Of a DNA stretch of 64,000 nucleotides, positions 11,367 to 19,177 are shown piece after piece. How positions within the stretch are numbered: position 1 is the first letter of the stretch; every line of letters starts with the position of its first letter. Source of the stretch: Candidatus Gastranaerophilales bacterium (GTDB lineage Bacteria > Cyanobacteriota > Vampirovibrionia > Gastranaerophilales > Gastranaerophilaceae); NCBI GenBank assembly GCA_944324395.1, contig CALUWC010000001.1:62001-126000 (forward strand), given 5' to 3'. The notes beneath the pieces are model-generated. The model was not told the DNA's origin. It saw only the letters and a program-made list of their open reading frames with translations, and did no database searches. The position numbers and the translations under genes are program-made.

Positions 11367-12260
11367 TTATCTTATAGTATTCCAAAAGTATCGTTTTAAT
11401 TTATCAAATCCGGACATGTTATCAATATTTTTGTTACCTTTGACTGTGGTAATATTGTATTCTTCCGGCTGAATGGTTCTTGTATATTTTGTATCAGTTG
11501 GTCCAAATAGCATTACATATCCGGGTTTATACCCTTGCGGAATTTCCAAAAATTCACACAAGTCAGGAAATACTTTTAGACAAATTTGAGCAAATCCGCA
11601 CCATAAAGTACCTACACCAAGGCTCTGAGCATACAGTTCAAAATAGCTTAGGGCAATTATGGGGTCTTCATTTGCGCAAGGTGCGTTGATAGGAACCGAC
11701 ACTACAATCATATGTGGTGCTTTTCTAAAGATAACATCATCGCCGTTTAAGAATGCGCTTTTGTATTTTTCAAATTTTTTTGTTATGGCATTAAAAGTTC
11801 TAGTGAGAAATAGTGATTTTATTTTATTGTTTGTTCTGTTTCTAAATCTGTCCATAACTTCAATGTCATCAATAATAGATATATGAAGTTTATGGAAATT
11901 GCAGCCTGTCGGAGAATATTTAAACATATCTTTTAATTTTTGCATTATTTCAGGTGATAAGTTTTCGTGTTTGTAGTGTCTGAAACTTTTTCTAGATTTG
12001 ATAAGATTTAGCATTTTATCAGATTCCGGGAAATTATTGCAATTTTCGGAATTTTCAGGATTTTTTCCAAGGATTGATATTGCTCCGGCCGGGCAAATGG
12101 CTAAACAATGCTGGCATTTTATACAACGAGATTCGTCCTCTTGTGATATTGATGGATGTTTGTCTGAATTTAGATGTATAATTTGTGCAATGCAGTCTTT
12201 TTCGCATAGTCCGCAATGAATGCATTTGTTTTTATCAACCTGAAAATTAATTTCGCTCAT
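11367..12260 (-). CDS. Nitroreductase with N-terminal 2x[4Fe-4S] ferredoxin domain
   Basis: This 297-residue protein joins a bacterial ferredoxin module (CIHCGLCEKDC near residues 12-22 and CIKCQHCLAICP near 42-53) to an FMN nitroreductase fold (SRKSFRHYKHENLS through SLGVGTLWCGF). Such fusions pass electrons from the clusters to FMN to reduce nitro compounds or related substrates in the cytoplasm. The reading frame stays open upstream through the tRNA-Ser gene, but the ATG at 12258-12260 with AAGGAG spaced correctly is the real start. It converges on gtrA with a 2-nt gap. The specific substrate is not predictable. Confidence 0.88.
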   Translation of the reverse strand: MSEINFQVDKNKCIHCGLCEKDCIAQIIHLNSDKHPSISQEDESRCIKCQHCLAICPAGAISILGKNPENSENCNNFPESDKMLNLIKSRKSFRHYKHENLSPEIMQKLKDMFKYSPTGCNFHKLHISIIDDIEVMDRFRNRTNNKIKSLFLTRTFNAITKKFEKYKSAFLNGDDVIFRKAPHMIVVSVPINAPCANEDPIIALSYFELYAQSLGVGTLWCGFAQICLKVFPDLCEFLEIPQGYKPGYVMLFGPTDTKYTRTIQPEEYNITTVKGNKNIDNMSGFDKLKRYFWNTIR

Positions 12261-12346
12261 TTTATTCTCCTTAAGTACCACTGTAGTATAAATAATATCA
12301 TTTAAATTTAAAATTAAAATAGTGAGTGTAAAAACTAAATGTCTAC

Positions 12347-12374
12347 TTGACAATTGATATTGAGTTGATAGAAT
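12347..12374 (+). promoter_or_regulatory. Promoter of tRNA-Ser
   Basis: TTGACA (12347-12352) and TAGAAT (12369-12374) are separated by 16 nt, about 24 nt before the tRNA 5' end. This is a good sigma-70 promoter match. Confidence 0.65.
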
Positions 12375-12397
12375 AAAGATACGACAAACAATTGTCT

Positions 12398-12487
12398 GGA
12401 GGAGTGCCAGAGCGGTTGATTGGAGCGGTCTTGAAAACCGTCGTACGTGCGAGCGTACCGTGGGTTCGAATCCCACCTCCTCCTCCA
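12398..12487 (+). tRNA. tRNA-Ser (anticodon UGA), CCA encoded
   Basis: This is a 90-nt type II tRNA. The acceptor arm GGAGGAG pairs with CTCCTCC, the anticodon stem CGGTC/ACCG carries loop CTTGAAA with anticodon TGA, and a long variable arm (GTACGTGCGAGCGTAC) is present as expected for serine. The T arm is GTGGG-TTCGAAT-CCCAC, and the 3' end includes CCA. The base before CCA reads T in this alignment, whereas serine tRNAs usually carry G there; a different acceptor alignment should be checked. Confidence 0.93.
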
Positions 12488-12490
12488 CTT

Positions 12491-12531
12491 AAAAAGCCCG
12501 AACCATAAAGGTTTCTGGCTTTTGATTTTTT
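12491..12531 (+). terminator. Terminator after tRNA-Ser
   Basis: An imperfect hairpin pairs AAAAGCC/GGCTTTT with inner AACC/GGTT, followed by a T-rich stretch directly after the tRNA. Confidence 0.6.
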
Positions 12532-12747
12532 GAGCTATTGTTGTTATGTTGTTACAATTAAATGTATTAAACCAGACATTTCAATCCTGTACGGTTAAAA
12601 TGATTTAACCCAGTAAAGTGGCTGTATTTTTATGTCCGATTTGCTTGGATGTAAATTTTTAAATTAAATTAAGTAGCAAAAATATTTTTTAGCGGTTTTT
12701 AGTTATGTTAGAATTAGTATGTATTAAATAAGATATAAATTATTAAT

Positions 12748-13479
12748 ATGCTATATATAGATAACAGATTTAATGTATCTGATAAAAATATTAGAACAGT
12801 TTCTTCTTCCGGGAAAATTAAAAAAACTGTTTCTGTTTCGGCTCCGTTAAAATCACTTTCAGAGTCCGGGTATATTGATAATTTGAAATTTAAAGCTCAT
12901 ATAAAGAGTGTATATGATGATATTTGTAATAAAATTGATTTGAATGAGCAAATTAGACCCAAATTGGAATTTGATACCATGGGAGCCGGAGCAGCTGGAG
13001 GATTTGACAATTTAGAGGGTAAAATTTATTTTGATGATAAGTTTTTAAAACAGCTTTCAGACAAGACTATTGTTTTTGCGATAAGACATGAGCTTCAGCA
13101 TGTAAAACAATTTCATAACATGGTAAGAATGCTCGGAATAGAAAAATTTGAGAAACTAATGGCTTGCAAAGATGAAAATTGTACGGAAAATAAATCTCTT
13201 AATTTTGAAAAAATCAATATTGAATACTATAGCAAAGTTGAGCAGGTACTTGGTAAAATAAATAAAGACTCTCCGGAAGGTGTTCTGACTCAAAAATATA
13301 TTGATGCATATAAAAAATATCCTGATTTAATCAAGCTTTGGAAAAGGACAGATATATGTATGCTTAAAAAGATATGCATTTTTGCACATGAAGTGATCTG
13401 TAACTACAAATTTAATTTTTTGGAAATTGATGCTAATAAAGCTGCAAAAATCTTTTTGAAGACTTTTAAAAATTTGTAG
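12748..13479 (+). CDS. Hypothetical protein with HExxH zinc-protease-like motif
   Basis: This 243-residue protein contains RHELQHVKQF around residues 113-122, a HExxH signature, and EIDAN at 226-230, a spacing and form (ExDA) that matches the third zinc ligand of gluzincin-type metallopeptidases. A Gly/Ala-rich segment (GAGAAGGFDN) and a predicted beta hairpin (GKIYFDD) precede the motif helix, as in many minimal zinc peptidases. There is no signal peptide or membrane segment. It is the first gene of a small accessory block after tRNA-Ser. No Shine-Dalgarno is seen; TATAAA or TAAATT lies 6-8 nt before the ATG. Protease activity is an inference; I do not recognise a named family. Confidence 0.6.
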   Translation: MLYIDNRFNVSDKNIRTVSSSGKIKKTVSVSAPLKSLSESGYIDNLKFKAHIKSVYDDICNKIDLNEQIRPKLEFDTMGAGAAGGFDNLEGKIYFDDKFLKQLSDKTIVFAIRHELQHVKQFHNMVRMLGIEKFEKLMACKDENCTENKSLNFEKINIEYYSKVEQVLGKINKDSPEGVLTQKYIDAYKKYPDLIKLWKRTDICMLKKICIFAHEVICNYKFNFLEIDANKAAKIFLKTFKNL

Positions 13480-13702
13480 GGTGTGACCATTGCAGTATTG
13501 ATATCAATTTGTTTTGTTCCCTTTTTACCGCACATTTATATGTAATTTTTGAGCCAAGAGATTATCTTGATCAGGAGTGACTTCCTGAAAATTAAAATAT
13601 GGATTCTGGATTATATTATTTGTGTTTACTGAATTATATCCATTTCTTACTGGCAAAACGTTTTTATCTTTATTTTAGTATATATTGACTTATATATTGA
13701 TA

Positions 13703-14343
13703 TTATAATTTTTGAAAAATTTTTATTTTGTCTTCAATATCTGTGTTTAAAATTTTTAAAATTTTTCTGATGATAGTTTCTCTTCCGAATTTGTTTTCTT
13801 TTGTAAATAGAATTTCTGTACCAGCCCAGTCTATAAATGTTAATTTTTGTATGTTATTGTTTATTCTTTCTGCAATTTCAAGTCCAAAGTTTGAGATTTT
13901 AATTTCTGATTTGTTATTATTGATAACCCCTTCATAGCAATCAATCTTGCTTTCGCAAATAGGTTGATATTCCGCTTTTTTAAGGGAAAACCCTGCATTT
14001 TCTAATAAATCGGGATCTTCAAGAAATTTTTTGTAACTTTCTGCTTCGTTTATTAAAGTTTCGGCATTTTGGGTTAAATCTGAGCCTGCTGACCTTTCCT
14101 GAAATTGATTTCCTTTTAACCGTATGCTGACGCTTTTCAAAGTTTTTCCTGCGATTTCCGGGTGCATTGTAAAATTATCAAAGGGATAGGAGTTTAAAGC
14201 CTGTTTAACTTCAGATGTTTGTGTTTTTTGATTTCTCTTTTTATGTGCAAAATAAACTGTTTACATTTTTCTTCGCCATAAATATTTTGTAATAAATTCT
14301 CATTAGAGCGGAATGAGATTGAGGATATAGAGTAATTTTTCAT
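13703..14343 (-). pseudogene. Hypothetical gene split by one-base frameshift in an A-tract
   Basis: The 154-codon frame at 13703-14167 has no convincing start of its own. Upstream, an ATG at 14341-14343 with a good AGGAG site opens a frame that runs 44 codons and then stops. Adding one A to the six-A run (T6 on the plus strand at 14224-14229) fuses both parts into a 213-residue protein. The product is soluble, with an N-terminal SISFRSNE motif and no recognised domain. Either this is a decayed gene, a sequencing deletion, or a gene relying on slippage at the A-run. The next gene upstream shows the same lesion type. Confidence 0.6.
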
Positions 14344-14405
14344 GTGGCTCCTTTTAAATTCATGTATGTTGATATCTTATTTTAATAATGGTTATTTTTA
14401 TTGTT

Positions 14406-14959
14406 CTACCCGAATAAATTTTTTAATTCTTCAGCTGTTTTTTCAATTTGCATTGCTTTTTGCTGTTTTGTATAAGCTCTGGTAGCCATGGTAGAGTTTT
14501 GTTTATCCAAATTATGTGCAATTTCTCCGGCTAATCGTAGTTTTAATTCATCTCCATAGAATGAAGCTAAATTGTTTGATATGCTGTAAAATTCTTCATT
14601 TGTTACAGAATAGTGAATTTTATAGATATCATCTTGCCCGTTTCTTTTAATATGTGTACATAAAGTTTTTGAATTTTTGCCGTCAATATACGGTGTTAAT
14701 CCGTATTCATTTGTATCCAAAACTTCTATAATATCTTTATTGTTCTCAGATTCTACAAAAACTTGTTTCCCGTCGTATGTTACTTTGCTTTTGAGTTTGT
14801 CTATCGGTTTTGCTATATCGTTCATAAATATTCGTTTGGCTCTATCGGTATCCGAGTATGAATAAATTTTTTCTGCTATTTTTTTGAAGCATTATCTTTT
14901 AATTTTAAAGCCATTCCGAAACTTTGTGTTTTTGTATTTTGGATATTTGTGATATTCAT
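14406..14959 (-). pseudogene. Hypothetical gene split by one-base frameshift in an A-tract
   Basis: The 139-codon frame 14406-14825 continues an upstream start (ATG 14957-14959, AGGAAG ribosome site) only if one A is added to a seven-A run (T7 on the plus strand, 14879-14885). As written, that upstream frame stops right after the run (AAAAAATAG). The restored protein would be 184 residues, beginning MNITNIQNTK and containing SFGMALKLKD, then a beta-rich middle and a C-terminal helix rich in Lys, Gln and Glu. No family is recognised. It sits 62 nt upstream of the other frameshifted gene in the same orientation. Confidence 0.6.
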
Positions 14960-14986
14960 TTATTACTTCCTATGTTTTGTTAATAT

Positions 14987-14995
14987 TGTTATAAT
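14987..14995 (+). promoter_or_regulatory. Extended -10 (TGT-TATAAT) before the kinase-like gene
   Basis: A perfect extended -10 ends 8 nt before the ATG at 15004. No Shine-Dalgarno site is present, so the transcript would have almost no leader. Confidence 0.5.
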
Positions 14996-15003
14996 ACTGA
15001 AAA

Positions 15004-15663
15004 ATGTATTATTTTGTTAGTCCGGTAATAAAATTTTACACAAAATTTGTATATTGGCTGCTAATAGCAAATTTTTCATTTATGTGTTTTATAATTTGTA
15101 TGTATATATCTCATCAAATAATATCTCCTGTTTCTTTTAATGCATCAAAAACTGTTCCGCTTGTAAAGGCTTTACAAAACCTTCAAACAAATCCGGATGA
15201 TACAAAAACTGTTGATATTTTTATAAAAGAACTTTCTAAAAATAAAACACTGTTGCAGCAGCCGGTTAAAAAGTACATAGGGAAGGGCAGTGCGGCTATT
15301 GTTTTTGAAACTCCTGAAGGAAATGTTTTAAAACTTACTCTGGGAAATCATTTCCCTATGAATAGACCAGTTGAAAGTTTCGATGTTCCTGTATATGAGC
15401 ATTCTAAGAGTGGGAAAGTCCACTGTTATATAGAGGAAAAGTTGTATCAACATGGTCTTTGCGACGCTTTTGTTGAAGAAGTTAAAACAAGTATCAGAAA
15501 AAAGGGGTATCGTACTTTTGATATTTATGACGGTGATGTATTTCAGATTGGATTTTCAAAAGAAGGTAAACTTTACCTTTTAGATCCGGAGTGTGCAAAA
15601 TACAAAACAATATTCCATGCTTTTTTTGACAAAATAAAAAGATTGTTTTGGAAGTTAAAGTAA
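15004..15663 (+). CDS. Membrane-anchored mini kinase-like protein
   Basis: This 219-residue protein has one N-terminal membrane segment (about residues 13-38) and a soluble part resembling a compressed protein-kinase fold. GKGSAAIVF (93-101) looks like the glycine-rich loop, with VLKLT (108-112) supplying a VAIK-type lysine. DIYDGDVFQIG (173-183) stands where a catalytic loop with Asp and Asn would be, and LYLLDPE (190-196) resembles the DFG-like metal-binding strand. At this length it may be degenerate or a small-molecule kinase relative. No clear Shine-Dalgarno site is present. The kinase link is a pattern judgement that structure prediction could test. Confidence 0.5.
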   Translation: MYYFVSPVIKFYTKFVYWLLIANFSFMCFIICMYISHQIISPVSFNASKTVPLVKALQNLQTNPDDTKTVDIFIKELSKNKTLLQQPVKKYIGKGSAAIVFETPEGNVLKLTLGNHFPMNRPVESFDVPVYEHSKSGKVHCYIEEKLYQHGLCDAFVEEVKTSIRKKGYRTFDIYDGDVFQIGFSKEGKLYLLDPECAKYKTIFHAFFDKIKRLFWKLK

Positions 15664-15689
15664 AAAGGGCTTTAGATAAAGCCCTTTTT
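15662..15689. terminator. Bidirectional terminator
   Basis: AAAAAGGGCTTTA pairs perfectly with TAAAGCCCTTTTT around a 2-nt core. The A-run and T-run serve both converging genes. Confidence 0.88.
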
Positions 15690-15695
15690 AATGGT

Positions 15696-16811
15696 TTAAA
15701 ATAATTTTGGAATAAATCTGTATTTAACTTTTTCAACGTATTTCTGATATTCAGGGTCTTTAATCAGATGTCGTTCTTCAGTGATTGCTCTCAGATAATA
15801 TATATATACCCAGGCCAGAGTTGCAATTGTTATAATTATTTTGGTAATAATTGAATACTGACTCATTAAGAACAGAGGTATGGTTGTTAAAATAATATAG
15901 CAAATTTGCATTGTGTAATCAGGGTGTCTGATTATATTGTATGGAAATCCTGTTACAATTCCTCTATTTGTCAGGTTTCCAACCTTTGTGCCAAGTCTTA
16001 ATACTGCGATTAAGCTTACAAAATTAACTAAAATAATCAGCAGATTTAATATCGCAAGTATGATTTGATTGTTAACAGGCAATAGAGAATCCGGTGTAAC
16101 TTCTATAAATTTATTTGTCAAAATAGTTATCGGGTAATAGCAGGCAATACAGCTTAAAACCCCAAGCGGAGTTGTATCGGCTGATTTAATTTTATTTTTG
16201 AAAAATTCGGTTTCTGTCAGGTAACTTACTGCATATACAAGCATAGATAGTCCAACTATAAATTTCAGCCACATATCACCTGTGTCAATTATGAATTGTA
16301 CAAATCCGGTTAATAAATTACCGCCGTTTGATGAGTCCTGCAAATATTGAACGAAAAATGTTTTAATAAAATCTATATCATATCCGGGACTTACAAAGTA
16401 TTTGTTAAATATTGCACTCAAACAATTGAACCCGAAAAATGATTTTATAAATAAAATCATAAATGCCTGTTTTTCATGTTCTGTAGGTTCAATATTTTTT
16501 AAAAATTCTTCAGTTGTTTCGTTTTTTCTGAATTGTCTTTTTATATATTCAACTATTGCAAGATTTCTGGATTCTAATATTGATTTAGGTTTGAATATGA
16601 AAAATACAACCGGAGCAATAATTATGTATGCCAGATAGTATATTATGAAAAACGAAATATAATCCATCCAGGATTCCTGAATAGTTTCATAAAACAAAGG
16701 GCTAAGTGATAAAATAGATAATAACACTCCGTAAATTAGTATTGATGAACAGTAATGTTTCAAAATGTCTTTTGTAGTTACTTCTCTTTCATTATTAAAA
16801 TTCTCTTCCAT
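15696..16811 (-). CDS. Integral membrane methyltransferase-like protein (ICMT/PEMT family)
   Basis: This 371-residue protein has about eight to nine membrane helices. Its C-terminus matches the isoprenylcysteine/phospholipid methyltransferase family: PYNIIRHPDYTMQICYII (SAM-site RHP motif), then EERHLIKDPEYQKYVEKV and a final YRFIPKLF. These enzymes methylate lipid or prenyl substrates at the membrane using S-adenosylmethionine. The N-terminal roughly 200 residues, with extra helices and a cytoplasmic KRQFRKNETTEEFLKNIEPT segment, are longer than usual. The ATG has an upstream GAGGAGAATATG context. The substrate is unknown. Confidence 0.75.
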   Translation of the reverse strand: MEENFNNEREVTTKDILKHYCSSILIYGVLLSILSLSPLFYETIQESWMDYISFFIIYYLAYIIIAPVVFFIFKPKSILESRNLAIVEYIKRQFRKNETTEEFLKNIEPTEHEKQAFMILFIKSFFGFNCLSAIFNKYFVSPGYDIDFIKTFFVQYLQDSSNGGNLLTGFVQFIIDTGDMWLKFIVGLSMLVYAVSYLTETEFFKNKIKSADTTPLGVLSCIACYYPITILTNKFIEVTPDSLLPVNNQIILAILNLLIILVNFVSLIAVLRLGTKVGNLTNRGIVTGFPYNIIRHPDYTMQICYIILTTIPLFLMSQYSIITKIIITIATLAWVYIYYLRAITEERHLIKDPEYQKYVEKVKYRFIPKLF

Positions 16812-18056: not shown

Positions 18057-19149
18057 TTAATTTGAAATTTTGCTGCGTAAATAGCTTTGTATAAACTCAT
18101 CAATATCTCCGTCCATAACGGCTTCGACATTAGATGTTTCATAGCCGGTTCTGTGGTCTTTCACCATTTTATACGGGTGAAAAACATAGGATCTTATCTG
18201 AGAACCAAAGTTTATATCGGCATTTTCGCCTTTTAGCTGTGCTAATTTTTTTTCGTATTCTTCTTCTTTGATTGCCAGTAGTTTTGAAACGAGAATTTGC
18301 ATTGCATATTCTTTATTTTGTAATTGTGATCGTTCCTGCTGGCATTTAACAACAATTCCTGAAGGTTTATGAAGAATTCTTACTGCGGTTTCAACTTTGT
18401 TGACATTTTGACCGCCGGCTCCGCCTGATCTCATTGTTGTTATTTCAAGGTCTTCAGGAGGAATGTTTATTGTTTTTTCAAAATCTTCAATGATAGGAGA
18501 AACTTCTACTGATGCAAAACTTGTCTGGCGTTTTCCGTTCGCATTAAACGGAGATATGCGTACTAATCGGTGAACCCCTTTTTCTGCTTTAGAGTAGCCG
18601 AATGCATATTTCCCGGTAATTTTAATAGTAGCAGATTTTATACCGGCCTCTTCTCCGTCAAGTTTATCTAAAAGTTCTGATTTCCAGTCTTGTTTTTCAA
18701 CCCAGCGGGTATACATTCTCAAGAGCATACTTGCCCAATCCTGAGCATCAGTTCCTCCTGCTCCTGAGTTTATTGTCAATATTGCATCTGCACTGTCATA
18801 TTCTCCGGATAACATTTGTTCCAGTTCAAATTTTTCTAGATCTTTATTCAGTGTTTGAATTTGTTTATAACAGTCGTCAATTAATTCAGAGTCAGATAAA
18901 TCCAGTGCGGTTTTACTGTCTTCAATAATGGTATTCCATTGATGCAGTTTTGCTAAAGTCTCTTTTTTTTCTTTTATTTGCTGCCCGATTTTTGCAACTT
19001 TATTTTGATCTGACCAAATATCAGGAGATTGCATTGACTCTTCCAGTTCGGTCAATTCTGTTTTAATTCTTTTCGGGTCAAAGATACTCCTTTATTTTAT
19101 CAAGTCTTGGCTGTAAAAGATTCAATTCCTGTTTTAATTCCGTTTCCAT
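18057..19149 (-). CDS. prfB: Peptide chain release factor 2, with programmed +1 frameshift
   Basis: RF2 recognises UGA and UAA and releases the finished peptide. The start ATG is at 19147-19149; the first frame stops after 23 codons at CTT-TGA-C (TGA at 19080-19078), with an internal AGGAG three bases before it. This is the classic autoregulatory slip site. A +1 shift gives a roughly 355-residue protein. SPF (in [10 protein letters not shown]) is the stop-codon-recognition tripeptide and [10 protein letters not shown] holds the GGQ catalytic motif. Frameshifting is favoured when RF2 is scarce, so RF2 controls its own level. The continuous frame in the database sense begins at 19080. Confidence 0.95.
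19078..19091 (-). promoter_or_regulatory. prfB programmed +1 frameshift site
   Basis: On the minus strand AGGAG-TAT-CTT-TGA-C combines an internal Shine-Dalgarno, a slippery CTT and an in-frame UGA, as in the conserved bacterial prfB recoding signal. Confidence 0.93.
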
Positions 19150-19177
19150 ATTACCATTTTATAATAAAAATACTTGC

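Follow-up and report, generated by a model that had tools for sequence, protein, structure and literature searches.

Two adjacent accessory genes of a Gastranaerophilales bacterium, each broken by a single missing base, probably reflect young gene loss

We identified two neighbouring genes in a Candidatus Gastranaerophilales bacterium, each of which is split into two overlapping reading frames that one added base would join. At a probability of roughly 0.6, our preferred reading is that the lineage acquired both genes not long ago, could do without them, and lost one base from each by slippage. What we observed directly are the two frame breaks, homologues that are intact, the mark of earlier purifying selection, a patchy distribution and a short version of the same locus in congeners. 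Taken this way the case is one of ordinary young gene loss, and it carries a caution: junctions at runs of six or seven A in a genome of 33% G+C are no evidence of switching. The window analysed here is a stretch of 64,000 nucleotides (positions 62001-126000 of contig C1) from a genome of 1.89 Mb in 25 contigs.

Two split genes and their relatives

Gene 1 occupies positions 14406-14959 on the minus strand. Its ATG (14959), preceded by the Shine-Dalgarno (SD)-like motif AGGA, opens a frame of 27 codons that ends at a TAG (14878-14876), while a distal frame of 161 codons opens at 14891 and closes with the stop at 14406. The protein reads through, to a length of 184 aa, only with a -1 frame change. 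By codon statistics trained on this genome, the ATG frame scores best up to the break (+6.4) and the -1 frame beyond it (+46.9); the distal frame has no SD-bearing start of its own within 60 bases of the gene 1 stop. Given that the stretch shared by the two frames is just 16 bases long (14891-14876), the break must lie within the A7 run at 14879-14885 on the minus strand, or adjoin it. This run is read in phase as A_AAA_AAA followed directly by UAG and is homologous to the AKKLA codons of the relatives.

Gene 2 lies at 13703-14343, also on the minus strand, and reads through to a 213-aa product only with a -1 frame change. Here the ATG (14343), with an upstream AAGGAG, is followed by 49 codons up to the stop at 14196-14194, and the distal frame of 185 codons opens at 14260 and closes with the stop at 13703. 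The ATG frame scores best before the break (+2.7) and the -1 frame after it (+43.5). The preliminary description of this DNA had reported both ATGs with their SD-like motifs, the two A-runs and distal frames that one added base would restore, and all of these were confirmed, codon statistics and homologues agreeing for both genes. It had also placed both breaks in A-runs, which holds for gene 1 and is not established for gene 2. The 67-base overlap of the gene 2 frames (14194-14260, minus strand), which holds the missing base, contains an A5 (14242-14238) besides the A6 (14229-14224), and the sole relative carries CCGCAAACC opposite the A6 and has no A-run there; placing the lost base in the A6 is therefore a guess, one option among several.

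When the joined gene 1 protein is searched against 287 other genomes of the family, 23 of them contain relatives, at 26 places in total, and 25 of the 26 places lack an internal stop. Many of these relatives align from residue 1 across the break site, so the two frames represent one ancestral protein. Those with a name come mostly from Candidatus Gastranaerophilales or Melainabacteria metagenome-assembled genomes, and gene 1 is a member of an undescribed Gastranaerophilales protein family with the N-terminal motif 'QSFGMAxKLK'. For the joined gene 2 protein, a single intact relative was found among the 287 other genomes, in another genus, with 59% identity over all 213 residues; since it covers both frames, these too derive from one ancestral protein. 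A second draw, of 383 genomes of the order with the own genome counted in, yielded no further gene 2 relative; in this order sample gene 2 thus occurs in 1 of 382 other genomes.

Both genes appear to have been under purifying selection until recently. Nineteen positions are conserved in at least 80% of the gene 1 family, and the four that differ here all lie at or just before the break; from the break onward all 13 strongly conserved positions are kept. For gene 2, comparing its final 173 codons with those of the relative gives a dN of 0.28 and a dS of 1.29 (NG86). Since the remainder of each gene is clean, we consider the breaks to be young.

The distribution of the genes is patchy. Among the 45 other genomes of the genus, gene 2 was not found, and neither was gene 1, apart from weak matches in 10 of the 45 (E 0.01-0.09, with the search extended to E 0.1); two of these weakly matching proteins (L003, L009) join the gene 1 family by profile. 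An intact distant member of the family is encoded elsewhere in the same genome (C1:16579-17130, profile E 5e-4). One gene 1 relative, in genome G240 (contig C70, L218), has decayed by different mutations: its ATG is lost through a Met to Ile change, a nonsense codon interrupts the frame and an internal segment is deleted. This supports the reading as young gene loss. Unrelated inactivating mutations in relatives, named beforehand as grounds for abandoning a special role of the A-runs, thus occur in this 1 of the 26 places only.

A variable slot next to a tRNA gene

Genes 1 and 2 sit in a slot of variable gene content at 12490-15690, which reaches from a tRNA-Ser (TGA) on the plus strand (12398-12487) to a methyltransferase-like gene and comprises 3.2 kb with four genes. 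The other two, both on the plus strand, are intact, so the slot is not decayed throughout. One is metallopeptidase-like, with an HELQH motif (12748-13479); its full-length relatives in G041 and G042 share approximately 60% identity with it, and its top Pfam match stays under the cut-off. The other (15004-15663) is divergent from gene 1 and encodes 219 aa with an N-terminal hydrophobic stretch; it has partial relatives in L122, L039 and L142, and no family assignment was found for it. The conserved flank (15696-16811, minus strand), whose product by our own reading would be a methyltransferase-like protein, was matched in 36 of the 45 other genomes of the genus. In two congeners (G043 and G045) the tRNA-Ser stands only about 0.4 kb from this same gene, and in G043 the short slot holds a single 95-aa ORF. 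In the sister species, different genes adjoin the methyltransferase-like gene. On the other side of the slot, the ORF at 11367-12488 (minus strand) has a GTG start that falls within the opposite-strand tRNA-Ser (12398-12487); translation probably begins instead at the ATG of MSEINFQVDKNKC.

How might the two genes have arrived at their present state? We propose that this Gastranaerophilales lineage gained both accessory genes fairly recently, presumably by horizontal transfer, in the slot beside the tRNA-Ser. Each would then have lost one base, most likely through replication slippage in an A-rich stretch. As a result, gene 1 would now yield only a truncated peptide of 27 aa and gene 2 one of 49 aa, with loss of function in both, which are presumably dispensable. 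The picture is much like that of young pseudogenes formed from frameshifted accessory genes, in which a single-base break and a clean remainder go together with absence from close relatives and a location in a variable slot by a tRNA, and indeed the orthologous frame is intact in relatives and carries a single break here. Unlike in such cases, two neighbours share one kind of break, and two such breaks within 0.7 kb are a coincidence that counts against independent decay. Homopolymer phase variation, slippage-dependent expression and shared decay had been put forward as readings; of the three, shared decay fits best, given the accessory nature of the genes and their variable slot, and the other two fare poorly, as set out below.

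Could the missing bases be assembly errors?

The main rival of young gene loss is an error in the assembly consensus, caused by low local coverage or a mixture of strains, with both genes intact in the organism. We regard this as unlikely, though it deserves serious consideration. Both events consist of a single missing base in a gene that is otherwise clean, and a local assembly problem would account for two neighbours at once. Spurious frameshifts introduced by assembly are on record, chiefly where coverage is low (PMC11017572). Indeed, a very young single-base loss looks the same as an assembly error, or as one state of a polymorphism in the population. The preliminary description argued that sequencing error would need to have occurred twice within 700 bp; this is a fair point, though not a decisive one when the species is represented by one genome, and that as an assembly only. 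The reality and the age of both deletions, as read from this single assembly, are accordingly not proven.

A homology control nonetheless indicates that frame errors are rare in this genome. The ORFs of all fetched relatives were compared with 361 kb of own sequence (C1 plus 120 kb of C2; 19% of the genome). A strong match was obtained for 178 of the 323 own ORFs there, and gene 2 itself was the one place that showed a split. None of the 109 ORFs matched to the sister species G042 (plus a stretch of G041) was split, and none of the 83 matched to G038. Gene 1 falls under the detection limit of this control, so breaks near a gene start can be missed; moreover, the control covers the 178 ORFs with relatives and not the other 145, and conserved genes might be poor stand-ins for accessory ones. 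An error restricted to this one place therefore keeps a minor probability. The runs concerned are, however, just six and seven bases long, and the ORFs of the sample contain 834 sense-strand A6 or A7 runs. When frame breaks were sought ab initio, with codon or hexamer statistics, 24 candidates emerged in the own genome, 30 in G038 and 22 in G042 and G041, mostly resembling ordinary overlapping genes. This search recovered gene 1 and missed gene 2, and we did not rely on its counts.

Could slippage restore the proteins?

Alternatively, the full-length proteins could still be made, either through ribosomal -1 frameshifting at the A_AAA_AAA of gene 1 or through RNA polymerase adding an extra A. 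Bacterial programmed -1 frameshifting of the dnaX type is the obvious comparison for the former. The likeness lies in the in-phase A_AAA_AAA of gene 1, with its UAG directly after. The differences are that the heptamer is missing from gene 2, where only C_AAA_AAA is found, that no stimulatory RNA structure is seen downstream of either junction (z +0.75 and +0.48), and that the junction is not conserved: the relatives read in one frame without slippage, and that of gene 2 has no A-run to slip on. Nor is the motif itself rare: 98 of the 274 ordinary genes in the sample contain A_AAA_AAR in phase. In these 274 genes, from C1 and 120 kb of C2, A_AAA_AAA is nevertheless found in phase less often than codon shuffles predict, with 115 occurrences against an expected 232. 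What a genuine site looks like in this genome can be seen in the window itself, at 18057-19150 on the minus strand, where AGGAG TAT CTT TGA C is found near position 19085; we take this gene to be prfB with the classical RF2 +1 frameshift site.

For transcriptional slippage, insertions in A-runs that would mend the frame in a share of the transcripts do occur, and their frequency rises exponentially with run length (PMC5574713). Rescue of this kind has been proposed for Blochmannia genes that carry tract frameshifts, in a study that counts tracts of nine or more as long (PMC3017870). The poly(A)-tract frameshifts of Blochmannia and Buchnera (PMC3017870) resemble the present case in the AT-rich genome, the break at an A-run and the otherwise intact gene, and the intact remainder here likewise bears the mark of past purifying selection. 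They differ from it in that the runs here are six and seven bases long and not nine or more, the genes are accessory and not core, and the frameshift is found in no relative. Overall, we consider either kind of rescue improbable.

Homopolymer switching and poly-G tracts

A further reading takes both genes for the OFF states of contingency loci, in which reversible changes in the length of an A-run would restore the frame. As in the contingency loci of Neisseria, Campylobacter and Helicobacter, a homopolymer is located near the gene start; unlike there, short A-runs take the place of long G/C tracts, and no tract is kept in relatives. The A6 and A7 runs, for their part, are ordinary in this genome: ORFs of at least 100 aa in approximately 361 kb contain 181 sense-strand A7, 653 A6 and 39 runs of eight or more, so the tracts at the breaks are no longer than the usual run of the genome. 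A comparison of run lengths across strains or metagenome-assembled genomes had been suggested. At the gene 1 site, the longest A-run in 31 relatives ranges from 0 to 7 bases (0 denoting a relative missed by the site pattern), with A7 in four, A6 in six and A8 or more in none, and shows no sign of a kept tract; since the 31 were chosen as open frames, broken relatives are under-represented among them. Together with the gene 2 relative, which lacks an A-run, and the missing stimulatory structure, these short tracts argue against both the phase variation and the slippage that had been proposed. We therefore hold OFF states set by A-run length to be very improbable.

G-tracts, in turn, suggest that on/off switching is likely elsewhere in the lineage. 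The genome under study (G000) has six G tracts of eight or more. Three of these lie in pilin-like leaders of the FTLAEVLITLGI type (C1:198920, L056; C5:22280, L221; C12:39195, L223) and one in a signal-peptide-like leader of another protein (C6:12321, L222), none of the four being in frame in the assembly; the remaining two are of another kind. In 420 kb of G038 we found nine poly-G leaders with an SD-bearing start, one of them in frame (those on its contig C1 are L064, L071-L073, L075 and L079). Throughout, a tract of 8-11 G follows soon after an SD-bearing start, and the G count sets the frame of the FTLAEVLITLGI sequence or of its signal-peptide-like counterpart on C6, with 12 of 13 out of frame. 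This looks like phase variation. Of the 46 genomes of the genus, 20 contain the pattern TTTCG8, and 4 contain the reversed pattern used as a control. Among the matches listed in a literature search, as far as their entries go, there was no report on phase variation in Gastranaerophilales, Melainabacteria or Vampirovibrionia.

The gene 1 family is touched by such tracts as well. In five of the 31 relatives (L030, L038, L155, L156, L162), a G8-G10 tract stands 58-66 bases upstream of the start, and in L030 and L155 its flanks (TTTC-Gn-CAACTTT) resemble those of the pilin-leader tracts. One could thus imagine that expression of the family is switched by homopolymers in general, by upstream poly-G in some species and by the coding A-run here, the two neighbours being OFF states of a switchable pair. 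If true, this would be a switchable, perhaps host-facing, gene pair in a gut relative of the cyanobacteria. Neither gene 1 nor gene 2 of the window has an upstream G-tract, however, and we give this broader version even less credit. Young loss of accessory genes remains our preferred reading of the window, and the poly-G leads may matter more than the two breaks: an undescribed protein family with upstream tracts, and pilin-like leaders, the present genome included.

The gene 1 family and its N-terminus

Searches of the gene 1 and gene 2 proteins against Pfam, PHROGs and NCBIfam gave nothing above cut-off (best PHROGs E 0.03, in a collection with no curated cut-off), and viral, phage and plasmid collections contained no match. 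For an intact relative of gene 1, an AlphaFold2 model built with 22 sequences reached a mean pLDDT of 80, and a Foldseek search with it returned no match at E 0.001 or better. In a second look, the best rows were ribosome hibernation factors (HPF/YfiA), with Z scores of 4.5 and lower, which we judged too weak to propose this fold for the model.

Unrelated proteins in these genomes share a common start resembling M-x-[IV]...[ST]F[GTK], for example C1:16579-17130 and C1:216497-216853. The motif '[ST]F[GTK]' is present in 12/323, 7/389 and 11/413 N-termini, against 14/1776, 20/1820 and 13/1806 internal-Met controls; it is approximately four times commoner at starts than at internal Met in the own genome and G038, and less so in G042/G041. 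Given that the pattern was picked after inspection and takes in ordinary signal peptides, a lineage-wide N-terminal signal is a lead that these counts might point to.

A last observation concerns strand bias: the sequence TTTCGGGGGGGG has 23 matches in G038, all 23 on the plus strand of the contigs, and mixed orientations in the other genomes with several matches.
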